Shown one piece after another: positions 44,217 through 56,392 of a DNA stretch of 64,000 nucleotides (within the stretch, counting starts at the first letter, position 1; each line of letters begins with the position of its first letter). The notes below the pieces were generated by a model. The model had not been told where the DNA came from. It saw nothing but the letters and a program-made list of their open reading frames with translations, and ran no database searches. Origin of the DNA: Bacteroidales bacterium (GTDB taxonomy: Bacteria > Bacteroidota > Bacteroidia > Bacteroidales > Bacteroidaceae); NCBI GenBank assembly GCA_015060965.1, contig SUXN01000007.1, positions 1-64,000 on the forward strand, written 5' to 3'. A program made the translations under genes and the position numbers.

Positions 44217-45170
44217 TCACTGCATCCTCTGAATTTCGTGCAGGTCGAGCAACCTGTTGACTATCGCATAGATTGTTATTCCTGCCGGGGAGTGTATCTG
44301 CAGTTTATTGGAGATATTACGGCGATGGGTGGTGACTGTATGCACCGACAGGTTAAGTGCATCGGCAACCTCCTTGTTGCTCATTCCTTTGGCGATACAC
44401 ACGACAATTTCTTTCTCGCGCTGGCTCAGGATATCAGCTTTTGATGTATCGGAGTCATCGGCAGGTGCCACAGTCTCACAACCACCCTGCTCGCGCACAC
44501 GCCTCTCGAGCTCCTCAACAGCGGGAATAAAAAGCATGTCCTCTACATTACAATGCGACGCAAGGTCCTGCTCGCAATTGATGATGTCGAACAGCACTGA
44601 ATTGAGCATATCATTGCATTTGTTGGGGTAATAGCTTATGACAATATCCTTGAGTTCCTTGAGCTTGACATCAATATGATTATGCTTTCCACTGAATACA
44701 CTGATTGTAAATCCGCTACCCAGACGGTTCTGTAACAGATCGTCGACATAAGTGAATACCACGGTATCCTCATACTCCATATGCTTGCGCACCTCGGTGA
44801 CATACTCATCATAGAATTTAAGGATAAGGAAAGCTACGTCATCGGAGCCGGAACAGTCGAGAGCCTCAATGAGACGGCGGCGTATCGTGGGGAGATTGTA
44901 GTCCAGAAAATAGGTGTGCGCACGACGCAGGTAGCCTATCAGTGAGGATAGCGAGAGACTTCTGTGGTCATTATCCTTTCCGCTTATAAGATTTGCCACC
45001 GCAAGGAATGTAGCGACATCCACGCCATGCATGTTGCATACCTCGTCGACACTCTTTTCACCGAAGCCTGATGATATGCCGAAACGGCTCATCACCATCA
45101 ACAGCGACGAGTTGTCACGGACAAGATTCCTCAGTTTGTCCGTAGGTTTGTATTTAACCGTATCGGCCAT
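44217..45170 (-). CDS. Hemerythrin/RIC-like sensor fused to LuxR-type HTH regulator
   Basis: 317 residues, cytosolic. Residues about 10-65 resemble the ScdA/DUF542 N-terminal domain of RIC (YtfE) iron-centre repair proteins. Residues about 75-222 look like a hemerythrin-type four-helix bundle: His85, HMEYED (His130, Glu134), His163/165 and HCNVEDMLFIP (His206, Glu210), the spacing of di-iron ligands. After a linker, residues 247-308 are a LuxR/GerE HTH (LSQREKEIVVCIAKGMSNKE). No receiver domain. I infer a transcription factor sensing NO, O2 or iron. Divergent from the di-haem operon with matched promoters. Confidence 0.85.
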   Translation of the reverse strand: MADTVKYKPTDKLRNLVRDNSSLLMVMSRFGISSGFGEKSVDEVCNMHGVDVATFLAVANLISGKDNDHRSLSLSSLIGYLRRAHTYFLDYNLPTIRRRLIEALDCSGSDDVAFLILKFYDEYVTEVRKHMEYEDTVVFTYVDDLLQNRLGSGFTISVFSGKHNHIDVKLKELKDIVISYYPNKCNDMLNSVLFDIINCEQDLASHCNVEDMLFIPAVEELERRVREQGGCETVAPADDSDTSKADILSQREKEIVVCIAKGMSNKEVADALNLSVHTVTTHRRNISNKLQIHSPAGITIYAIVNRLLDLHEIQRMQ

Positions 45171-45198
45171 ATTATCTCCCGGAGCATATTATGCACCA

Positions 45199-45233
45199 CA
45201 AAATTACTGCCATACGGAAACATGGACAATACC
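45199..45233 (-). promoter_or_regulatory. Promoter of the hemerythrin-LuxR regulator
   Basis: On the minus strand GGTATTG (45227-45233) ends in the -33 TTG, and after 20 bases comes TAATTTTG (45199-45206). The leader is about 28 bases to the start at 45170. Confidence 0.65.
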
Positions 45234-45270
45234 TAAAAATAATTAAAACAACAATTTTTCACAATCAGAA

Positions 45271-45319
45271 AATACCACAAATTCGGTATTGCCAGGCACG
45301 GGCTGCCGCAATAATTTTG
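45271..45319 (+). promoter_or_regulatory. Promoter and candidate operator of the di-haem/imelysin operon
   Basis: GGTATTG (45285-45291), 20 bases, TAATTTTG (45312-45319): the same sequence and spacing as the divergent promoter. AATACC (45271-45276) with GGTATT (45285-45290) forms an inverted repeat with an 8-base spacer over the -33 region, a likely regulator site. Confidence 0.65.
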
Positions 45320-45340
45320 CACTCGAAAAAATGTATTGGA

Positions 45341-46636
45341 ATGAAAAGAAACATAATTATCACAATGCTGATACTCTCCTTTGCATCCACTTTTGCGGTA
45401 GCTCAGGAGAAGAAAGAGACTGGCGGGAAAGGCAACATCTGGTCAAGGCTCTCATTAGGAGGCTACGGCGAGGCAGTATACACCCGCAACTTCTACAGTG
45501 ACAAATACCTGAGATACACCGACGCTGCCACATACAAGGACGATGACAGCCACGGCCGTTTCGACCTGCCGCACATTGTGTTTTGGGTAGGCTACGACTT
45601 TGGCAAGGGCTGGACCCTTGGAACAGAGATTGAATTTGAGCACGGTGGCACTGAGAGCGCCGTGGAGATTGAAGAGGAGGAGGCCGGCGAGTACGAGTCG
45701 GAAGTTGAACGCGGAGGCGAGGTTGCCATTGAGCAATTCTGGATAAACAAACGCTTCAGCCGTGCACTGAACCTGAAGATAGGACATATTATCGTGCCCG
45801 TGGGAGCGACCAACATGTACCACATGCCCACAGAGTTCTTCACCAACTACCGTCCCGAGGGCGAGAGCACCATCATGCCCTGCACCTGGCATGAGACCGG
45901 TATAAGCCTGTGGGGAGAGACCGACCACTGGCGATACGAGGTATTGTTCCTGCCGGGACTCGACTCCGACCGTTTCGGACGCCAGACATGGATTGCCGGA
46001 GGTGCCGGAAGCCCATACGAGTTCAAGATTGCCAACAGCTACGCAGGAGCATTCCGTGTGGACAACACATCCATAAAAGGATTGCGTCTGTCGCTCAGCG
46101 GCTATGTAGGCAACTCCTTCAAGAACACACTGAGCGCAACGGACAATGCAAAGTTCAAGGATGTGAAAGGAACAGTATACATCGGCGCATTCGACTTCTG
46201 CTATAAGAGCAGGAACCTCACTGTAAGGGGCAACTTTGACTATGGTCACCTCACCGACTCCGAGATGATAACAAAGTACAATATGTCAATGCGCAAGGAC
46301 TCCCCATCGCCCAAGCAGGCTGTCGGCTCCGATGCCATTGCTGCAGGCGTTGAGGCGGGTTATAATATCCTCGCACTTTTCAACGGCAAGGAAGTGGAGC
46401 ATGAGAAGCTTTACCTCTTCGGACGCTATGAATATTACGATTCAATGTTCAAGACCGAAGGCAGCATACAGGACTACAAATGGTGCAGCAGACAGCGCAT
46501 TGCAGCCGGCATAAACTACTGCCCGGTAAAGGATATTGTCATCAAAGGCGAATACAGCATAGGCCTGCTCGACAGCCGCTACAACAACGAGCCTTCAATA
46601 TCCCTGGGAATAGCATACGCGGGACTTTTCAAGTAA
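45341..46636 (+). CDS. Outer-membrane beta-barrel (porin-like) protein with acidic loop
   Basis: 431 residues from MKRNIIITMLILSF; a longer frame from 45191 would run through the promoter. Signal peptide to VAQ (about 20). The barrel has alternating aromatic strands (WSRLSLGGYGEAVYTRNF; IEQFWINKRF; IGHIIVPVGATN) and resembles the OprO/P porin group. A loop at about 105-125 (AVEIEEEEAGEYESEVE) is very acidic, which suits cations such as iron better than phosphate. It is the first gene of the operon with imelysin and the di-haem protein. Confidence 0.85.
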   Translation: MKRNIIITMLILSFASTFAVAQEKKETGGKGNIWSRLSLGGYGEAVYTRNFYSDKYLRYTDAATYKDDDSHGRFDLPHIVFWVGYDFGKGWTLGTEIEFEHGGTESAVEIEEEEAGEYESEVERGGEVAIEQFWINKRFSRALNLKIGHIIVPVGATNMYHMPTEFFTNYRPEGESTIMPCTWHETGISLWGETDHWRYEVLFLPGLDSDRFGRQTWIAGGAGSPYEFKIANSYAGAFRVDNTSIKGLRLSLSGYVGNSFKNTLSATDNAKFKDVKGTVYIGAFDFCYKSRNLTVRGNFDYGHLTDSEMITKYNMSMRKDSPSPKQAVGSDAIAAGVEAGYNILALFNGKEVEHEKLYLFGRYEYYDSMFKTEGSIQDYKWCSRQRIAAGINYCPVKDIVIKGEYSIGLLDSRYNNEPSISLGIAYAGLFK

Positions 46637-46660
46637 TGAACCAACTAAACAAATAACACT

Positions 46661-47830
46661 ATGTATTTCAAGAAACTTTTGAACATTGCGCTTGCAGCGA
46701 CACTCATGATTGGTTTCACAGCCTGCAGCGACGATGATGACAACAACGGCCCGGGCAATGAGCTGAGCCAGAAAGAGAAGACATTCAAGGCAGCCATCGT
46801 GCCATACGTTGACAACACCATTGTCCCCACATACAAGGGAATGGCCGACAATGCGATACTTATGTCCGATGCCTGCAATGCCATTGCCGAGGCTTTCGAC
46901 AACGGCACGCTCACAAGCGAGCATGTAAAGGCTGCCGGCAACTACTGGAACCTGTGCCGTGACTACTGGGAGAAGAGCGAGGCTTTCCTCTACGGTGCCG
47001 CAGCCGACTATAACATTGACCCGCACATCGATTCATGGCCTCTTGACAAGAACGCGATGGAAGAACTGCTTGTTGACCTCCGCGGTGGCAAGAGCTGGAC
47101 TATCGACAACAATGCAGGATACGGCCTTCTCGGTTTCCATGCTGTAGAGTATATGCTCTTTGAGCTGAGCGAGGACGGCAACACCTCACTCCCCCACAAC
47201 ACCAACTACACTAGAGAGGAACTTGTGTACCTGTGCACCGTAGCCGAAGACCTCCGCAACCAGTGCGTACGCCTTGAAGTTTCTTGGGCAGGAATGGAGA
47301 ATGTAAGCGTTGAGAAGCAGGATATCCTTGCCGAGGCCGAGCTTGAGCCTTCAATCAACTACGGTTGGAGCATGAAGAACGCAGGCGAGGGCGGCAGCCT
47401 CTACAAGACTTATCAGGAGGCAGCCGAGGACCTTGTACAGGGCTGCATCGACATTGCCGACGAGGTTGGAAATACAAAAATCGGCCGCCCGGCGAACGGC
47501 AGTTCCGAGGATGACAAGAACTACATCGAGTCGCCCTACAGCCTCAACTCAATCAACGACTTTGTAGGCAACATAATAAGCATACGCAACGCTTATCAGG
47601 GCAGCAATGCCGGCGACGCGTCAATCAGCGACTACATAAAGAGCGTAAATCCTGCGCTTGACACAAAAGTCAAGGCGCAGATTGAGGAGTGCATCGTGCT
47701 CATCAAGAAGATTCCCGAGCCGTTCGCAAAGAGCGCAACAGGCCCTGAGGCCGATGCAGCAGTAACAGCAGTAGGTACAGACCTTGTCGACACACTCGAA
47801 GAGGTAATGACTGCATTGTCAAGATATTGA
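46661..47830 (+). CDS. Imelysin-family (M75) iron-binding lipoprotein
   Basis: 389 residues. Lipobox TAC (Cys22) is followed by SDDDDNN, matching the Bacteroides surface-lipoprotein export signal. Alpha-helical imelysin fold with the GxHxxE motif GFHAVEYML (158-166; His160, Glu163) and a C-terminal repeat of the fold. Imelysins (IrpA, ICMP, EfeO relatives) bind or help acquire iron; proteolysis by the family is doubtful. Spaced 24 bases after the barrel gene and 12 before the di-haem gene. Confidence 0.93.
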   Translation: MYFKKLLNIALAATLMIGFTACSDDDDNNGPGNELSQKEKTFKAAIVPYVDNTIVPTYKGMADNAILMSDACNAIAEAFDNGTLTSEHVKAAGNYWNLCRDYWEKSEAFLYGAAADYNIDPHIDSWPLDKNAMEELLVDLRGGKSWTIDNNAGYGLLGFHAVEYMLFELSEDGNTSLPHNTNYTREELVYLCTVAEDLRNQCVRLEVSWAGMENVSVEKQDILAEAELEPSINYGWSMKNAGEGGSLYKTYQEAAEDLVQGCIDIADEVGNTKIGRPANGSSEDDKNYIESPYSLNSINDFVGNIISIRNAYQGSNAGDASISDYIKSVNPALDTKVKAQIEECIVLIKKIPEPFAKSATGPEADAAVTAVGTDLVDTLEEVMTALSRY

Positions 47831-47842
47831 TAAAGAATCATT

Positions 47843-49489
47843 ATGAAGAAGAATACTTTATTGCTCTTTGCGCTTTTGAGCCTTGGTATTGTCTCATGTA
47901 GCGATGATGACAACAACTCAAAGCCGGCACCACAGCCCGAGGCAAATCTTCCCGAGTGGTATTACACCGGTGGAGAGCTCGGAACAACACATCTTGCCAC
48001 ATTCAATGCCTTCGAGCAACCGACAGTCTCTGTTGAGGAGGGAGGTATGTACCAGTCGTTCAAGAACGGCGAAGCACTCTTTGAGAAGCCGTTCATGAGC
48101 AACAACAGTGGTGTGCGCCACGGCCTGGGCCCTATATACATACGTACATCGTGCCTCCATTGCCACCCGGGCTACGGACACGGCAAACGTATTGAGGCCG
48201 GCACATTCAACACCAACGAGATTGGCAACGGTAACCTGCTTGTCGTGTATAACAAGGATACCGAGGGTTACGTGCCCTGGCTTGCAGGAATGCCTCAGAG
48301 CCATGCAGTGGCACCGTTCAAGGCCCCTGTCGACGAGAGCAAGATTACCGTCGAGTGGAAAGATTATACCGATGAATGGGGCAACAAGTTCCCCGACGGC
48401 GAGACATACGAGCTGCAATATCCCGAGGTCAATATGCCCGAGGATGCCGTTTACGTATACAACCAGGGATATGACCAATTGGGCAACTATGGTGTAAAGC
48501 TCGAGTCGACCATCGGCATATACGGTACAGGACTGCTCGATGCAATCAGCGATGAGGATATAACCGCCGAATGGAAGAAGCAGGAGCAGGACGGACTGAT
48601 GCAGAACGGACTGAACATAGCCTATTTTGAGAACGGACAGTGGAAGAGTTTCTATGCAAACACAGCCCAGGGCGGTGACGGCACAAAGTACATACGCCGT
48701 TATACATACGCCATGAGCCGTGGCCCGTTGCAGGACGGAGCAGGGGCAAACGCTTTCTGGAACATCACCAACGCCACACGCAGCGACCGCCGTATGCACT
48801 ATCTTGATGCTGCCGGAACATACGCACTCTACTCATCAAAGGACCCCGAGGTTCAGGCAGGCTTCGAGAAATATATTGCCGGCATTGACCCCGAGAAGAA
48901 GTACCCCGAATTCTGGGAGGGCACAATGGAGGAGCGCATATACGCCTATCTCACATCAAAGAACCTGCCCGTTGAGGTAAGCGACGAGGAGTATACCGAC
49001 CTTATGGTATGGCACCGCGGACTTGCTGTTCCGGCAGCCCGTAACGTACACGACGAGGATGTACAGAAAGGACGCAACCTCTTTGAGAAAATCGGCTGTA
49101 CTTACTGCCATCGTCCATCGTGGACAACAGGCGAGGACAATCTGAGAGACCCTGCACGTTTCTTTGCTGATGGCGGCGACGAACTTCCACGTTACCCCCA
49201 CCAGAAGATATGGCCATATACCGACATGGTACAGCACAAGCTGCACATGGAGAATGACATACGCACCGGTTGGTGCCGCACTACCCCGTTGTGGGGACGT
49301 GGCCTGCACCAGAAATGTACAGGCTCACCTACTGCCGACCGACTGCACGACTGCCGCGCGCGCACTACAATGGAGGCTATCATGTGGCACGGCAATGCAA
49401 AAAGCGATGCACGTTACACCGTTGAGAATTTCCGCAACCTCTCAAAGGAAGAACGTGATGCCGTCATAAAGTTTATTGACTCTATCTAA
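47843..49489 (+). CDS. Di-haem oxidoreductase (DHOR/cytochrome c peroxidase-like) lipoprotein
   Basis: 548 residues. Lipobox VSC (Cys19) is followed by SDDDNNS, again a surface-export type signal. Two haem c sites: CLHCH (104-108) and CTYCH (419-423). The segment LHDCRARTTMEAIMWHGNA corresponds to the HDGRA region of DHOR proteins. The family sits beside imelysin genes in proteobacterial iron-regulated clusters. Expected role: electron transfer or peroxide/iron redox chemistry outside the inner membrane, here probably on the cell surface. Confidence 0.92.
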   Translation: MKKNTLLLFALLSLGIVSCSDDDNNSKPAPQPEANLPEWYYTGGELGTTHLATFNAFEQPTVSVEEGGMYQSFKNGEALFEKPFMSNNSGVRHGLGPIYIRTSCLHCHPGYGHGKRIEAGTFNTNEIGNGNLLVVYNKDTEGYVPWLAGMPQSHAVAPFKAPVDESKITVEWKDYTDEWGNKFPDGETYELQYPEVNMPEDAVYVYNQGYDQLGNYGVKLESTIGIYGTGLLDAISDEDITAEWKKQEQDGLMQNGLNIAYFENGQWKSFYANTAQGGDGTKYIRRYTYAMSRGPLQDGAGANAFWNITNATRSDRRMHYLDAAGTYALYSSKDPEVQAGFEKYIAGIDPEKKYPEFWEGTMEERIYAYLTSKNLPVEVSDEEYTDLMVWHRGLAVPAARNVHDEDVQKGRNLFEKIGCTYCHRPSWTTGEDNLRDPARFFADGGDELPRYPHQKIWPYTDMVQHKLHMENDIRTGWCRTTPLWGRGLHQKCTGSPTADRLHDCRARTTMEAIMWHGNAKSDARYTVENFRNLSKEERDAVIKFIDSI

Positions 49490-49500
49490 AATATTATTAT

Positions 49501-49530
49501 CTTTGGTCCCATGCGGGACCAAAGATTTTT
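49501..49530 (+). terminator. Intrinsic terminator between the di-haem gene and ccsBA
   Basis: A perfect 10-base stem CTTTGGTCCC/GGGACCAAAG with loop ATGC is followed by ATTTTTTAT, 12 bases after the di-haem stop and 24 before the ccsBA start. It may limit downstream expression. Confidence 0.85.
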
Positions 49531-49553
49531 TATCCCTTTATCCCTTTGATACA

Positions 49554-51752
49554 ATGAGACGAGAAAAACTGTTCAAATATCTTTCATTCGGTCTTTTTGC
49601 CGTGATAACAGCCATTCTTATGGTTGCCACCATAATGGAGAAACTCTACGGCACGGAATATGCGCTGGAGAATATCTACTGCGCCCACTGGATGATTGCA
49701 CTGTGGACAGCAGCCACCCTCTCGGCCATTGTATATATACTGCAACGCAAGCTGCACAGGCAGCCGGCTACCCTGTGTCTTCATCTTTCCTTTGCTGTCA
49801 TTCTCATAGGAGCACTCGTGACGCACACTACAGGCAAGCAGGGACAGACACACCTGCGCATAGGCGAGCTTACCAACCAATATGTGCTACCCGACAGCAC
49901 AATAGAGAAACTGCCGTTCAGCATCTCACTGCACGGCTTTGAGGTAACACGTTACGCAGGTACCCAAGCCCCCATGGACTTTATAAGCACAATCGTTATA
50001 TATGACAACGAGCGCATTGAGGGCACTGTATCCATGAACAACATCTTCAAGCACCGCGGATACCGTTTCTACCAGTCGGGATATGACAATGACGAGAAAG
50101 GAACGTTCCTCTCAATCTCATACGACCCGTGGGGAATAGGTATCACATACGCAGGCTATGCGATGCTGCTATTGTCGATGATGTTGTTTTTCGTTCAGCC
50201 GGACAGCCGTTTCCGTGCCGCATTGCGCAAAGGTGGCGTTGCGCTACTTCTGATATTTGCATCAGCGACAGCCAATGCCCGGGAAATGCCACAGACACTG
50301 CCTCGGGATGTTGCAGAGAAATTCTGCGACATATATGTCAGGTATAACGACCGTATATGTCCATTGCAGACACTCGCCATTGACTTTACGGCAAAAGTAT
50401 ACGGCAAAAGGAGCTACAAGGAGTACACCGCCGAACAGGTCCTATGCGGCTGGTTCTTCTACTACGACGAGTGGAAAAACGAGCCAATGATAAAGATAAA
50501 AGGCACAGAGGTAAAAGAGACGCTCGGAATAAATGGCGACTATGCGGCGCTTACCGACTTTACAAACTGCGACGGCTATAAATTGGAAACCGCCCTACGC
50601 GAAAAAGACAACCGTAAAGTAAAGGATTTTGCCGCTGCCAACGAGAAGTTCAGCATAATCAGCATGCTCTGCACCGGCACTCTGTTGAAAATATTCCCAT
50701 ACACAGAAAAAGAGACAGACGGCATCACATGGTACTCCTTTGCCGAAAGGCTCCCGTTGGAGATAGAGCCCGACCGGCAACTTTTCATCAGCAAGAGCAT
50801 GGGCCTCATTGCCGAGAAGGTAGCGATGTGTGACTATGCAAGTGTAGAAACCATTGCCGCAAAGATAAGGCAATACCAGACAAAAGAGGGAGGCAACAGT
50901 ATACCCGGCGAGGTCTCATTCAAGGCCGAGAAGCTCTACAACAGCATCAACGGCAACCGCCCGCTTGCAATGGCATGCCTCACAATAGGTATTGTACTCT
51001 TTTTCATAATGTGCGTGCATACAAAAGAGAGCAAGGCAAAGCGCGTTGCCGCCATTATACTGAAAACCGTTGCATGGGGTATTGTTGCATACCTGACATT
51101 GCAGATACTCCTGCGCTGGCACATAAGCGGACACGTTCCCCTTGCCAACGGTCACGAAACAATGATGTTCATGGCGTGGTGCAGCATGTCGCTCACCCCC
51201 CTGCTTGCCGGCAGGATGAGGATGATGCTACCTTTCGGCTACATCGTGTGCGGATTCACACTGCTTGTGGCCACAATGGGCGAGGCAACACCACAGATTA
51301 CCCCCTTGATGCCCGTGTTGCAGTCACCGTTGCTGTGCATACACGTTCTTGTTATAATGATTTCATACACTCTTTTGGCAGTCACCATGCTCAACGGCAT
51401 TGCAGCAGTAGCAATAAAGGTAACCCGCAAGAATACAGAAGAGGAGATTGCCGAACTGCAGAGAACAAGCATCCTCATGCTCTACCCTGCCGTGTTCCTG
51501 CTCACTGCCGGAATATTCATCGGAGCCGTATGGGCAAACGTATCATGGGGACGCTACTGGGGCTGGGACCCCAAGGAGGTGTGGGCACTCATCACCATGC
51601 TCGTCTACAGCGCCGCCCTGCACAGCGGCTCGATAAAGGCAATGCGTCGCCCGATGTTCTTCCATATATACTGCATACTCGCATTCCTGACAGTGCTCAT
51701 CACCTACTTTGGCGTCAACTTCATCCTGGGCGGCATGCACAGCTACGCGTGA
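49554..51752 (+). CDS. ccsBA: Fused ResB/CcsA cytochrome c assembly protein (System II)
   Basis: 732 residues from MRREKLFKYLSFG; an upstream frame extension crosses the terminator and is rejected. The N-terminal ResB (CcsB) part has membrane helices and a periplasmic domain (about 100-450). The C-terminal CcsA part has NGHETMMFMAW, HVLVIMISYTLLA and the haem-handling WGRYWGWDPKEVWALITML motif. It exports haem and attaches it to CxxCH sites. Lying directly behind a di-haem protein gene, it may be dedicated to that cytochrome. Confidence 0.93.
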   Translation: MRREKLFKYLSFGLFAVITAILMVATIMEKLYGTEYALENIYCAHWMIALWTAATLSAIVYILQRKLHRQPATLCLHLSFAVILIGALVTHTTGKQGQTHLRIGELTNQYVLPDSTIEKLPFSISLHGFEVTRYAGTQAPMDFISTIVIYDNERIEGTVSMNNIFKHRGYRFYQSGYDNDEKGTFLSISYDPWGIGITYAGYAMLLLSMMLFFVQPDSRFRAALRKGGVALLLIFASATANAREMPQTLPRDVAEKFCDIYVRYNDRICPLQTLAIDFTAKVYGKRSYKEYTAEQVLCGWFFYYDEWKNEPMIKIKGTEVKETLGINGDYAALTDFTNCDGYKLETALREKDNRKVKDFAAANEKFSIISMLCTGTLLKIFPYTEKETDGITWYSFAERLPLEIEPDRQLFISKSMGLIAEKVAMCDYASVETIAAKIRQYQTKEGGNSIPGEVSFKAEKLYNSINGNRPLAMACLTIGIVLFFIMCVHTKESKAKRVAAIILKTVAWGIVAYLTLQILLRWHISGHVPLANGHETMMFMAWCSMSLTPLLAGRMRMMLPFGYIVCGFTLLVATMGEATPQITPLMPVLQSPLLCIHVLVIMISYTLLAVTMLNGIAAVAIKVTRKNTEEEIAELQRTSILMLYPAVFLLTAGIFIGAVWANVSWGRYWGWDPKEVWALITMLVYSAALHSGSIKAMRRPMFFHIYCILAFLTVLITYFGVNFILGGMHSYA

Positions 51753-51767
51753 AAAAACATCCGGCCA

Positions 51768-52535
51768 TTATCCCATTTTGCCTGTGAGATAGGCTTTGGT
51801 ACGTTCATCCGAAGGATTGGAGAACAATGTGGCCGTATCGCCATATTCAACCAGTTCGCCAAGATACATGAACATCGATTTTGAGGATATACGCATTGCC
51901 TGGCCCATATTGTGAGTAACAATAAGGATAGTTACCTCCTTTTGAAGTTCCTGCATCAGTTCCTCGATATGCGCTGTCGCTATCGGGTCAAGAGCCGAGG
52001 TCGGTTCGTCCATCAGTAGCACATCGGGCTTCATGGCCAATGCGCGGGCAATACAGAGACGCTGCTGCTGACCACCGGAAAGGAATGTGCCTTTCTTGTT
52101 CAGAACATCCTTGACCTCGTCCCAAAGTGCAACACTCTTCAGGCAGCGTTCAACGGTTTCGTCCTTCTCGGTTTTTGAAAGACGGATGCCGTTAAGTGCA
52201 TAACCGGAAAGCACATTGTCATAGATACTCATAGTGGGGAAAGGTGCAGGTCGCTGAAAGACCATACCTACCCTGCGACGTACATCTATCGGCTCCATTG
52301 AGAGGATATTTTCTCCATTCAACAAAATCTCGCCATCTACACGGATATTGGGATAAAGGTTATGCATCAGGTTTACAGCACGCAACAATGTACTTTTACC
52401 ACAACCAGAGGGACCCATTATAGCAGTTATACTGTTTTTATCGATGGCAGCCGATACATATTTCACTGCCATCGTCTGCTTGGTATATGATACACAAGTT
52501 TTGTTGAATTCAAGTATAGGTGTTACTGATTCCAT
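51768..52535 (-). CDS. pstB: Phosphate ABC transporter ATP-binding protein
   Basis: 255 residues. Walker A GPSGCGKST (41-49), FQRPAPFPTMSIYDNV typical of PstB, signature LSGGQQQR and Walker B VLLMDEPTSALDP. It powers uptake through PstCA. Overlaps the pstA end by 13 bases. Its stop is 15 bases from the convergent ccsBA stop with no terminator in between. Confidence 0.97.
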   Translation of the reverse strand: MESVTPILEFNKTCVSYTKQTMAVKYVSAAIDKNSITAIMGPSGCGKSTLLRAVNLMHNLYPNIRVDGEILLNGENILSMEPIDVRRRVGMVFQRPAPFPTMSIYDNVLSGYALNGIRLSKTEKDETVERCLKSVALWDEVKDVLNKKGTFLSGGQQQRLCIARALAMKPDVLLMDEPTSALDPIATAHIEELMQELQKEVTILIVTHNMGQAMRISSKSMFMYLGELVEYGDTATLFSNPSDERTKAYLTGKMG

Positions 52536-53389
52536 TTTTTTGCAAGATACTTAGATAAAAGATTCAATGTAAGAACAAATAATAACAAGAAGAGTGATGC
52601 GCCCCAAATCAGTTCCTGGAGATTAGGGTCATTGAAGAACTCCCATATAAGCAGAGGAACTGCCGATATCGGCTTGTCAACCGCAAAGCGGATGAATGAG
52701 CAGCCGAGTGCGGTAAACATTAGCGGTGCCGTCTCGCCAATTACGCGCGAGATTGCCAACAATACGCCGGTAAAGATACCGCCGAAAGCAGCGGGAAGCT
52801 GTACTTTAAGCATTACACGGGCACGGTTTCCACCGAGAGCCAGCCCCGCCTCCTTGAGTGACGTAGGCAATATCTTCAATGTCTCTTCAGTAGAACGGAT
52901 AATCAGCGGCAACATCATGATAAATAGTGCCACGCTACCGGCAATGGCCGAGTAACCTTTCATTGGAACAACCACCCATATATAAACCACAATACCGATT
53001 ATGACCGAGGGGGTTCCCTGCAACAGGTCGGTAAGATAACTCACTGTCTGGGCAAATCTGCTTTTGGGATTCTCCGCCAGAAATGCACCGCATAAGATGC
53101 CTACCGGGATTGCTACAACCGCAGCCATGCCAAGCATCAGCATTGTTCCTACAATTCCGTTTGCAATACCGCCGGGGATAGGTTCACCGGCCTCAATTGC
53201 TTTCATTGCCTTGTATGCTGTTGGAGTAGGCTCGGTGAAGAAGGACCACGAAAGTTGGTCGTAACCACGCAGGAACACCTCTCCCAAAATGGCAAACAGA
53301 GGGACAGCAGTAAGGGCTGCCAGCAAACATACGGCCCATAGCAACGCTTTATCCTTTGCCAGACGATTCCTGATTTTCAACTTTTCCAT
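52523..53389 (-). CDS. pstA: Phosphate ABC transporter permease
   Basis: 288 residues with about six membrane segments. The permease loop for PstB contact is visible as LKEAGLALGGNRARVMLKVQLP. Co-transcribed between pstC (2-base gap) and pstB (overlap). Confidence 0.95.
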   Translation of the reverse strand: MEKLKIRNRLAKDKALLWAVCLLAALTAVPLFAILGEVFLRGYDQLSWSFFTEPTPTAYKAMKAIEAGEPIPGGIANGIVGTMLMLGMAAVVAIPVGILCGAFLAENPKSRFAQTVSYLTDLLQGTPSVIIGIVVYIWVVVPMKGYSAIAGSVALFIMMLPLIIRSTEETLKILPTSLKEAGLALGGNRARVMLKVQLPAAFGGIFTGVLLAISRVIGETAPLMFTALGCSFIRFAVDKPISAVPLLIWEFFNDPNLQELIWGASLFLLLFVLTLNLLSKYLAKKWNQ

Positions 53390-53391
53390 AG

Positions 53392-54249
53392 TTATGCTAT
53401 TCTTGCGCGTTTAATCATTATTTTACCTATCATATTGATGAATGCCGTAATCAGGAACAGTATCAGGCCTATGGCAATCAGTGACGAGAGTCTCAAGTCA
53501 TCAGCCTCACCGAACTGGTTGGCAATGATTGATGCCATTGAGTTACCCGTTGATGTGATTGAATCGGGGATGTTGTTCGTATTACCGATAAGCATCGTTA
53601 CAGTCATTGTCTCGCCCAATGCACGGCCAATCGCCAGGATATAAGAAGAGAAGATACCTGAGCCGGCAACAGGGAACACTACTTTACGGATAACTTCGGC
53701 ATGAGTTGCGCCAAGGCTGTATGCACCCTCTTTGAGCTCATTCGGCACCATTTTTATAAACTCGGCACTCAGCGAGGCTGCGTAAGGAACAATCATAATG
53801 GCCAACACTAACGAAGCTGTAAGCACGCCTGAACCTTGTGGTGAAATATTGAGCGCCATAATCAGAGGGCGCAAAGTGTAGAAGCCCCATAAGCCATATA
53901 TAATGGATGGTATACCGGCCAACAAGTCCGTTACAGTGCTCAACACGGCAGCAATACGTGTCCCTTTGAAATACTCACCTACAAACAATGCTACGGGCAG
54001 CGAAAACGGGATACAGAACAAAAGGGCAAGCAACGTAGTCATCAGAGTACCCGTAATGAACGGCAGTGCACCGTACTGTTCCGCTCCTTCCGTGTAGCTC
54101 CACTCCGAAGAGGTCAGGAACTTAAAGAACCCGAAATGCTCGAATGCCTCGTACGCGTCAGTGACGAGGGCGTAGACTACGCCCCCGCACACTATCGGCA
54201 TTATCAATGCTGCTGCGAACAATAGGATTTTGTATAACTTATCGCTCAT
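53392..54249 (-). CDS. pstC: Phosphate ABC transporter permease
   Basis: 285 residues with six membrane segments and the EAA-type loop LKEGAYSLGATHAEVIRKVVFP, followed by GSGIFSSYILAIGRALGETM, a PstC hallmark. Starts 9 bases after pstS. Confidence 0.95.
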   Translation of the reverse strand: MSDKLYKILLFAAALIMPIVCGGVVYALVTDAYEAFEHFGFFKFLTSSEWSYTEGAEQYGALPFITGTLMTTLLALLFCIPFSLPVALFVGEYFKGTRIAAVLSTVTDLLAGIPSIIYGLWGFYTLRPLIMALNISPQGSGVLTASLVLAIMIVPYAASLSAEFIKMVPNELKEGAYSLGATHAEVIRKVVFPVAGSGIFSSYILAIGRALGETMTVTMLIGNTNNIPDSITSTGNSMASIIANQFGEADDLRLSSLIAIGLILFLITAFINMIGKIMIKRARIA

Positions 54250-54258
54250 AACGTTTTA

Positions 54259-55320
54259 TTATTGCAACATTGGGATTCCGTCATATGTCACAGTCTTTAG
54301 ATTCTTAAGGCTCAACTCCTTGGCTTTAGCCGGTAGCGGAGCATAATGCACCTCCGATGTAATCTGTTGCGCCTCGTCCGAAAGGATGTACTCCAAGAGG
54401 TCAAGTGTTGCCAAAGCCTGCTCCTTTGTACGGTCGGAGTAGTTCTGTTCCTTGTATATTATCATCCAAGTGAAGGTTGAAATCGGGTATGCACCGGCAG
54501 CATCCGAATTTGTTATTGAACAACGGGTATCGGCTGGAATTTCACCTGATGCGGCAGCCGAGATCGATGCTGATGACGGCATAACAAACTCACCTTTCTG
54601 ATTCTCGACACATGCATAAGGTATCTTCTGTGCAAAAGCATACTCCGAGCCTACATAGCCGATTGAGTTCTTTGTCTGTTTGATGACACCTGCCACACCG
54701 GGATTTCCCTTTGCAGCCTGTCCGGCAGGAAAGTCAACCGATTTACCGGCACCATATTTTGAAGCCCACATAGGACTTACCTTGGTAAGGTAATCAGTGA
54801 ACACGAATGTTGTACCTGAACCATCGGAACGATATACAGGGATGATAGTCTCCTCCGGGAGCTTTACATCGGGATTGAGAGCAGCCAAACGCTCATCGTT
54901 CCACATCTTTATCTCACCGGCAAAGATGTCCGCGATAATCTCACCTGACAGTTTCAATTCATTTACGCCATCAAGATTGTAGGCAACAACCACAGCGCCC
55001 ATACAGGTTGGGATATGTACTACAGGATCCATCTCTGCCATCTCCTTGTCCGAAAGAAAGGCATCGCTGCCTGCAAAATCTACAATCTTGTCACGAAGGT
55101 TCCGTACGCCTCCGCCCGAACCTATACCACCATACGCTACCTGGTCACCGCCGAGCTGTCCGAACTGCTCGAATACCACATTGTAGAAGGGGAGAGGGAA
55201 TGTAGCACCCGCACCGGAAAGTTCCTGCGGTGCACGACCGCCATTGTTCTCTTTACTGCCGCAAGCCACAAAAGCAAGTGCAACAGCCAATATCATTACT
55301 GATGATAGAATCTTTTTCAT
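54259..55320 (-). CDS. pstS: Phosphate-binding lipoprotein
   Basis: 353 residues; lipobox FVAC (Cys20) followed by GSKENNGG, without acidic +2/+3 residues, so retained facing the periplasm. Phosphate-binding segments: SGAGATFPLPFY, FAGSDAFL, and RSDGSGTTFVFTDYL. It delivers phosphate to PstCA. It lies 26 bases downstream of the porin gene and shares its Pho-box promoter. Confidence 0.96.
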   Translation of the reverse strand: MKKILSSVMILAVALAFVACGSKENNGGRAPQELSGAGATFPLPFYNVVFEQFGQLGGDQVAYGGIGSGGGVRNLRDKIVDFAGSDAFLSDKEMAEMDPVVHIPTCMGAVVVAYNLDGVNELKLSGEIIADIFAGEIKMWNDERLAALNPDVKLPEETIIPVYRSDGSGTTFVFTDYLTKVSPMWASKYGAGKSVDFPAGQAAKGNPGVAGVIKQTKNSIGYVGSEYAFAQKIPYACVENQKGEFVMPSSASISAAASGEIPADTRCSITNSDAAGAYPISTFTWMIIYKEQNYSDRTKEQALATLDLLEYILSDEAQQITSEVHYAPLPAKAKELSLKNLKTVTYDGIPMLQ

Positions 55321-55346
55321 ATAATATTTATTTTAGATATTTTTAT

Positions 55347-56327
55347 TTAAAACCCGAAGTAACAACTCACATATGCATAGTGTCCGTTCTTTGCCCCGTC
55401 AGCCTTTGGCATTGTCATTCTGAAATTAGGAGCAATCTTCACATACTTACCGAGCTTGAACTGTGCACCGAAGATAGCAGCCGACTCATCCTTGGAGATG
55501 TTCCAGTCATCTTTAGAGTACAAGTCATCGAAGCGGGCATAAAGGTCGGCGGTTTTTGTAAGACGGGCCGAAGCAAACAGTGAATATCCATACTGGTCGG
55601 CACCATCAGCATATGAGGCGTTCCACATCTGGTTATACTCTGCACCAAGCGTAAACTTCTCGTGCTTGTAACCGACAAATGCAGCCAAGTTTGTAATATC
55701 CTTCTTGCCATCTTCGCCACTCTCGTTCAGACCGCCATAAACACGGACCTGGAGACCTTTGACCGGGGTAAGAGTCAGACCCAGGCCATAATTGAGTCCA
55801 TCGTTCTTTTGAATCTTCTTGTAGCCCTCGCCATTCACAATGATAGCATCAGCAGATAGCCAATCAGCGAATTTGTAGGCTACAGAGAGACCTAAATCGG
55901 CACTGCTGCCGAATTTGTACTCATCCTGAAAAGACTTCATAACGTAACGGTAGCCCCAGAATTTCTCCTGAAAGTTGAACTGGGTAGTAGAGATAAGACC
56001 GCCAGAGAGTGTAAGATTTCCGCTCTTCCACTGTACCTGTGCATTCTTGATATAGGCAATGCGCTGATAGTCATTGACATCTGAAGACTTGCCGATATCC
56101 ATTACAGCTTTTGCAGACAGACCCTTGCCGAAGTTGTATTCATAGCCCAGATAGCTACGCTCCAGCTCAAAGCCACGGTCATCATTATCAGCCCCGAAAC
56201 CAGTGTGGAAATTACCGAACACCTGAACAATCGCTTTGCCCTTGGGATCCTCTGTCTTGGCATTCTGCGCCTGTGCGCCGATGCCGATGCAGGTTAAAAA
56301 ACCTGCCAAAATCAGTTTTGTTTTCAT
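55347..56327 (-). CDS. Phosphate-starvation outer-membrane porin (OprO/P-like)
   Basis: 326 residues from MKTKLILAGFLTCIG; a longer frame from 56381 crosses the promoter. Signal peptide to AQA/AQN, then a barrel with IVQVFGNFHTGFGAD at the start and a C-terminal aromatic end (YVSCYFGF). Position at the head of the pst operon behind a Pho-box-like promoter suggests phosphate passage across the outer membrane. Confidence 0.88.
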   Translation of the reverse strand: MKTKLILAGFLTCIGIGAQAQNAKTEDPKGKAIVQVFGNFHTGFGADNDDRGFELERSYLGYEYNFGKGLSAKAVMDIGKSSDVNDYQRIAYIKNAQVQWKSGNLTLSGGLISTTQFNFQEKFWGYRYVMKSFQDEYKFGSSADLGLSVAYKFADWLSADAIIVNGEGYKKIQKNDGLNYGLGLTLTPVKGLQVRVYGGLNESGEDGKKDITNLAAFVGYKHEKFTLGAEYNQMWNASYADGADQYGYSLFASARLTKTADLYARFDDLYSKDDWNISKDESAAIFGAQFKLGKYVKIAPNFRMTMPKADGAKNGHYAYVSCYFGF

Positions 56328-56356
56328 AGTCTTTTGTCTCATTAAATTTGACACTG

Positions 56357-56392
56357 CAAAAATATCGGGAAGACATTTCATAAATGTTACAA
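56357..56392 (-). promoter_or_regulatory. Predicted Pho-box promoter of the porin-pstSCAB operon
   Basis: On the minus strand, direct repeats TTGTAAC (56386-56392) and ATGAAAT (56375-56381) are 11 bases apart and followed after 10 bases by the -7 box TATTTTTG (56357-56364). No -33 TTTG is present, as expected for an activated promoter. The same layout occurs at 60358-60393. Confidence 0.7.

Follow-up and report, generated by a model that had tools for sequence, protein, structure and literature searches.

How Bacteroidales, the dominant Gram-negative order of the gut, sense iron is described in the literature as unresolved, and a five-gene locus raises the question of which signal, regulator and surface chemistry might be involved. 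The locus lies at positions 44217-51752 of a stretch of 64,000 nucleotides (the window) from a Bacteroidales bacterium (assembly GCA_015060965.1, contig SUXN01000007.1, positions 1-64,000 of the forward strand). One gene, encoding a regulator, is read leftward; four genes, separated by small gaps, are read rightward and encode an outer-membrane barrel, an imelysin, a di-haem oxidoreductase (DHOR) and the cytochrome c haem lyase CcsBA. An earlier description of this DNA (the original prediction) presented these five genes as an undescribed, self-contained surface iron system that is switched by oxygen, nitric oxide (NO) or iron, and our gene calls and domain searches bear out the place and order of the genes, the di-iron ligands of the regulator, the two CxxCH motifs, the imelysin motif and the acidic barrel. 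The evidence presented below suggests that a shared promoter box ties the operon to known iron-uptake genes of the order and that this control is independent of Fur. We consider it probable, with a good measure of doubt, that the locus serves gut Bacteroidales during iron starvation, as an operon that acquires inorganic iron at the cell surface and is controlled by a di-iron LuxR-type activator.

A promoter box shared with iron-uptake genes

Both of the divergent promoters between the regulator gene and the operon carry the dyad TACC-N8-GGTATTG at the -33 position, one exactly and one imperfectly. The predicted operon promoter, found with a promoter-linked pattern (45273-45319, plus strand), combines an exact box, TACCACAAATTCGGTATTG, with the -7 element TAATTTTG. 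The predicted regulator promoter (45245-45199, minus strand, and read on that strand) combines a box with two mismatches, TAATTATTTTTAGGTATTG, with the same -7 element. The box stands at a fixed spacing from the Bacteroidales -7 element and overlaps the -33 position, and its free inner positions are also symmetric (TACCtAa..tTaGGTA). These two promoters are the only matches with at most two mismatches in the window, and the operon promoter is the only exact match of the promoter-linked pattern in its own genome.

The box recurs among relatives. AATACC-N8-GGTATT, with at most two mismatches, occurs upstream of the barrel gene in 44 of 87 loci, compared to 19 of 870 shuffled sequences. In a survey of 198 Bacteroidales genomes the strict promoter-linked pattern gave 58 matches, distributed over 44 genomes, compared to 3 matches for a reversed control pattern. 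(Note that the bare dyad ATACC-N8-GGTAT, taken without the promoter part, is not enriched in the window's own genome, with 7 sites and 5 control sites. A half element, GGTATTG with a -7 box, seemed enriched in strong-regulator genomes and was set aside; many of its matches in G182 and G078 lack the dyad and precede tRNA-like or unrelated genes.) A half-box with a -7 element also stands directly 5' of the imelysin gene in three loci (L004, L005 and L056), which suggests an internal promoter before imelysin in some relatives.

Iron-uptake genes stand downstream of the box. The box directly precedes FeoAB, its commonest target, in 19 genomes, and it is also found before hmuY followed by hmuR (in one genome, L235), before a flavodoxin gene followed by a DUF2023 gene, before several TonB receptor genes and before a gene for a FeoB-associated protein. 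Hemerythrin-regulator genes, a paralogue of the barrel described below and the window operon complete this set. (The box was seen in addition before a gene for a ferredoxin-DUF1858-DUF2249 protein, at L231:337-2031 and at L245, and some matches precede genes with no evident role in iron.) In Bacteroides thetaiotaomicron the iron-starvation genes include hmu, flavodoxin-DUF2023, the hemerythrin-regulator pair and BT2473-2482; in the absence of iron, BT2473-2482 increased 63- to 324-fold and BT0519-0520, which encode a hemerythrin protein and a regulator, increased 16- to 20-fold (PMC10434189). Thus, judged by gene family, the boxes match the published response to iron. Iron starvation is the best-supported signal.

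A di-iron LuxR-type protein as the candidate binder of the box

The regulator (44217-45170, minus strand) consists of a hemerythrin domain (approximately residues 1-223) fused to a GerE/LuxR-type DNA-binding domain (residues 246-302), as judged from Pfam (Hemerythrin PF01814, E=5e-9; GerE PF00196, E=1e-17), NCBIfam and profile matches. A profile of the regulator family, when compared to the PDB, finds YtfE (5fnn, E=5e-8) and also ScdA (9j47), which argues that the sensor domain is of the RIC kind. The full ligand set of RIC, YtfE and ScdA (H, H, E, H, H, E) is present in the window regulator; H85, H130, E134, H206 and E210 occur without exception in the 38 regulators, H163 is found in 36 of the 38, and C45 is conserved alongside these ligands. 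The regulator thus shares with the RIC/YtfE/ScdA repair proteins all six di-iron ligands and the overall domain, but differs from them in being fused to a DNA-binding domain and in lacking the Cys-Cys pair of the ScdA_N domain, where GFGE stands instead. Against the equivalog model for the repair proteins (TIGR03652) it scores 40.1 bits, below the cut-off of 204.7. Its make-up is that of CdhR, namely hemerythrin together with a GerE-type helix-turn-helix, whether fused or adjacent. In most Bacteroidales the two parts are encoded by two adjacent genes, as for CdhR, and are not fused.

The box resembles NarL/GerE-type sites, which are 7-2-7 dyads for the class of DNA-binding domain present in the regulator, and is unlike the classical Fur box. 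Across the survey the regulator is present in 37 of the 44 genomes with the box and in 89 of the 154 without it (p=0.0013, uncorrected for ancestry), and 18 of the 19 genomes with a box before feoAB have it. Moreover, three genomes (G126, G055 and G036) have both the box before feoAB and the hemerythrin regulator with no FUR-family match found, so the box is not restricted to genomes that have Fur, and Fur is weakened as its binder. We put at about an even chance the wider proposal that iron uptake in Bacteroidales is run by a Fur-independent activator, in which a RIC-type di-iron domain would sense iron directly and a LuxR/NarL-type domain would bind the TACC-N8-GGTA box before feoAB, hmuYR, flavodoxin, its own gene and the surface redox-imelysin operon.

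That the box is instead bound by another regulator (Fur or a different NarL-type protein), the hemerythrin protein being a mere target, strikes us as unlikely but far from negligible. The hemerythrin genes themselves bear the box, as targets would, and these genomes encode many further LuxR-type proteins, whereas the form of the box, the three box genomes that have the hemerythrin regulator and no FUR-family gene, and the divergent promoters of the window, which suit autoregulation, all favor the hemerythrin protein. Published observations fall on both sides, since PgFur affects hmuY (PMC6558696) but P. gingivalis CdhR is described as an activator of the hmu genes (PMC10101095). With a named cis-element and a named candidate sensor, both present where Fur is absent, the question of how these bacteria sense iron becomes directly testable.

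Four structural genes that stay together and a looser regulator

Related loci were collected through DHOR (80 named loci) and analyzed by clustering of their neighbors. In every related locus with enough flanking sequence, the barrel, imelysin, DHOR and CcsBA genes are found in one order on one strand, and the imelysin and DUF1111 (DHOR) genes are adjacent. Clustering counted DHOR in 94 loci, CcsBA in 92, and the barrel and the imelysin in 89 each. The only further common neighbor is the regulator family; no other structural gene is widely common and the remaining neighbors vary. In the 198 Bacteroidales genomes the 22 that encode an imelysin are those that encode a close relative of the barrel, and all 22 have DHOR on the same contig.

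Of 102 loci, 23 have the regulator close to the block, as one fused gene or as an adjacent pair; among the 52 loci whose flanks reach 6 kb or more on each side, the number is 13. From one or two regulator genes per 3-Mb genome we estimate that approximately 1% would be expected by chance. At least five arrangements were found (fused divergent, split divergent, split convergent, split co-directional downstream and fused convergent), and the tree requires several separate changes of regulator linkage. The regulator is therefore a looser partner of the block than are the four structural genes. Away from the block, hemerythrin-LuxR pairs adjoin feoAB (in L105, which belongs to the window's own genome, and also in L250 and L252) or a TonB receptor gene (L110); a fused regulator adjoins a gene for a ChaN-type haem-binding protein in L109. 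The pair of L105 (contig C7, L105:623-4549) is a second, split one in that genome and comes after a FeoAB fusion gene.

These findings bear on the original prediction, which rested on the five genes being associated in related genomes: the association is conserved, fully for the structural genes and well above chance for the regulator. Of its self-contained surface iron system, the single functional block, the surface location, the role in iron and the service of CcsBA to the di-haem protein are all supported; the regulator, however, is not exclusive to the operon, given that the family occurs elsewhere in most Bacteroidales.

The proteins encoded by the operon

The barrel (45341-46636, plus strand) has no Pfam match of its own, although some homologues match Porin_O_P or BBP2. 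An AlphaFold model (predicted local distance difference test 84.7) has 16 strands and is porin-like, and Foldseek matches it to OmpC and DcaP porins. Ten glutamates between positions 96 and 131 (the acidic region E96-E131) are invariant in the alignment, in and around a loop that is modeled at low confidence, which argues that acidity is a selected feature. (We place the start of the gene at 45341 and not at the head of the longer open reading frame, 45191, because the latter falls 5' of the predicted promoter, which ends at 45319.) Weak matches to the barrel in other genomes were considered as barrels of the same cassette and rejected, as they belong to a separate two-gene unit. There, a barrel paralogue of approximately 400 amino acids precedes a member of one family of small exported proteins (approximately 180 amino acids) in each of the 14 loci retrieved (L118-L131, for example L119:9153-10959). 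The small protein matches FMN_bind in Pfam in the one case tested, and in four loci (L118-L121) this unit directly follows a hemerythrin-LuxR pair. This pairing argues that barrels of the family partner with exported redox proteins, as porin plus redox partner.

The imelysin (46661-47830, plus strand) is a lipoprotein of the M75/IrpA type (PF09375, Peptidase_M75, E=2e-43; 149 bits against a cut-off of 23.5) with the motif GFHAVE. Its order is canonical and non-permuted when compared to PDB 4ecg and 3n8u, and GxHxxE is retained in 88 of 89 homologues, the exception being a truncated sequence. M75 proteins bind metals (PMC9174327). Circularly permuted imelysins, with swapped halves as in a solved B. 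ovatus protein, are found in L100, L102 and L103, all of which have the larger operon version described below.

DHOR (47843-49489, plus strand) is a lipoprotein with two CxxCH motifs (PF06537, E=2e-36; 125.8 bits against a cut-off of 22), and exactly two are present in 95 of 95 homologues. A fold search returned only weak matches, to MacA and bacterial di-haem cytochrome c peroxidase (E=0.03-0.05), too weak to draw on for a mechanism. The processed imelysin and DHOR would begin with CSDDDD and CSDDD, respectively, and both fit S(D/E)3, the signal for export of lipoproteins to the surface and vesicles of Bacteroides (PMC6222051). A surface location of both proteins is supported by these predicted signals. 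In one locus (L089:8031-11373) the DHOR gene is present in two tandem copies.

CcsBA (49554-51752, plus strand) probably begins with the ATG at 49554 of a reading frame that is open from 49476. It joins ResB and CcsA domains in one chain (PF01578 and PF05140) with a WWD motif (WGRYWGWDPKE), which identifies it as a System II cytochrome c haem lyase, and it aligns over its full length with the CcsA-type structure 25vk (E=2e-100). Its score of 149.1 bits against the equivalog TIGR03144 lies below the cut-off of 187.6; this is a matter of naming and not of System II assignment, as the model spans only the CcsA-type half (252 positions). The window CcsBA thus shares whole length and WWD-type motif with the CcsBA haem lyases of PDB 7s9y and 25vk, and differs in sitting inside an iron operon and in being the only one detected in its genome. 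Indeed no other PF01578 protein, and hence no other cytochrome c haem lyase, was found in that genome (94.9% complete), so to have called it dedicated was fair. A protein of approximately 380 amino acids with a C-terminal RidA-like domain is encoded beside or near CcsBA in L098, L100-L103, L044, L054, L061 and L083.

These proteins could also be read as an iron-regulated defense against peroxide or a scavenger of oxidants, in which DHOR would be a surface peroxidase and the imelysin would keep iron from Fenton chemistry, with no import. DHOR is annotated as a putative peroxidase, the best of its fold matches, though weak, are MacA and di-haem cytochrome c peroxidase, and the related B. thetaiotaomicron locus is induced in colitis besides iron loss (PMC10434189). 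However, the box regulon is one of iron uptake (feoAB, hmuYR, TonB receptors) with no peroxide genes seen among the targets, and an imelysin with an acidic barrel suits the handling of metal. We regard this reading as rather improbable.

Signal and proposed mechanism

There is little likelihood, in our view, that the regulator chiefly senses NO or oxygen at its di-iron site and responds to iron indirectly. YtfE-type proteins are linked to NO stress and the domain is related to RIC/YtfE, but the targets of the box are iron genes, with no nitrosative-stress genes seen among them, and the published induction of the related locus is by iron depletion (PMC10434189). Of the three switches first suggested, it is iron that the cis-element evidence favors, although oxygen and NO may act as modulators. 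Import of haem or haem iron in place of inorganic iron is very unlikely: the same box precedes hmuY-hmuR in the single genome noted above, Bacteroidales depend on haem and one fused regulator adjoins the ChaN-type gene, but porins that lack a TonB plug, as the barrel does, are not known to import haem, the ligands of imelysins are metal ions, and the commonest target of the box is FeoAB, for ferrous iron.

We therefore return to inorganic iron acquired under a di-iron activator, for which the DNA binding, the iron sensing and the transport chemistry are what we infer. With ample iron in the cell, the RIC-like domain, occupied by a di-iron centre, would keep the LuxR domain inactive. When iron is low, the metal-free regulator would bind TACC-N8-GGTA beside the -33 element and activate its own gene and the operon. 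Surface imelysin would bind iron, the di-haem protein would shift its redox state (most likely from Fe3+ to Fe2+), the acidic barrel would let iron across the outer membrane and FeoAB would bring Fe2+ inward, with CcsBA attaching haem to the di-haem protein. The operon would then be a compact candidate for acquisition of surface iron by a porin and a cytochrome in place of a TonB receptor.

Several points weigh against this account. None of the operon's genes encodes an electron donor to the di-haem protein, which leaves the reductase step on weak ground, and DHOR proteins are usually called putative peroxidases. The window's own genome has no clear box before feoAB, even though the split regulator pair adjoins those genes. 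One genome with a box before feoAB (G155, 92% complete) has no hemerythrin half detected, and the co-occurrence of box and regulator is owed in part to shared ancestry. Finally, because the genome is 94.9% complete, its missing part could encode a further haem lyase.

Relation to known systems

Neither the type of operon nor the fusion of the regulator is new, and the claim that the system was undescribed is not sustained. B. thetaiotaomicron BT2473-BT2482 likewise encodes a barrel/porin, a peptidase M75, a "thiol oxidoreductase" (DHOR) and CcsA, and is very strongly induced without iron and strongly induced in colitis (PMC10434189). The imelysin of a related B. ovatus locus, in permuted order, has a crystal structure. 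A larger operon version in our collection (L098 and L100-L103) has three additions, namely a Porin_O_P porin, a one-haem lipoprotein and a RidA-like gene ahead of CcsBA, and in this it is similar to the B. thetaiotaomicron locus as published. Judged by these similar loci, the BT2473-BT2482 version would differ from the window in having a permuted imelysin in some cases, a shorter DHOR, a second porin, the one-haem lipoprotein and the RidA-like gene, whereas the window has the compact four-gene form together with a fused regulator.

In P. aeruginosa PA4370-4373, V. cholerae VC1264-1266 and EfeUOB, an imelysin is paired with a di-haem DUF1111 protein under iron regulation (PMC3143127), as the genes are paired in the window. 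The window differs in adding a conserved acidic porin and a haem lyase and in a box that is not Fur-like; moreover, no EfeU (Ftr1-like) permease is found among the five genes, which sets the locus apart from EfeUOB. As for the regulator, CdhR (PG1236-1237), BT0519-0520 and a fused P. intermedia form have the same two-domain make-up, and the fusion has already been noted (PMC10434189). In the window, by comparison, the fusion faces an imelysin operon, and the proposed box links the family to feoAB, hmuYR and that operon.

What appears to be new is the box, together with its attribution to the di-iron regulator. Knowledge of iron regulators in Bacteroidales is described as scarce, and CdhR as not shown to bind iron (PMC10434189). 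Among the open-access papers searched we found neither the box, the regulon nor a Fur-independent link to a RIC-type regulator, and none that joined hemerythrin, LuxR and Bacteroides, or hemerythrin, feoB, Bacteroidetes and regulon.

Neighboring genes

Downstream of CcsBA, on the opposite strand, the window contains a pst phosphate-transport operon (51768-56381), which includes a porin-like outer-membrane gene at 55347-56381. The pst operon appears to be unrelated to the iron operon.

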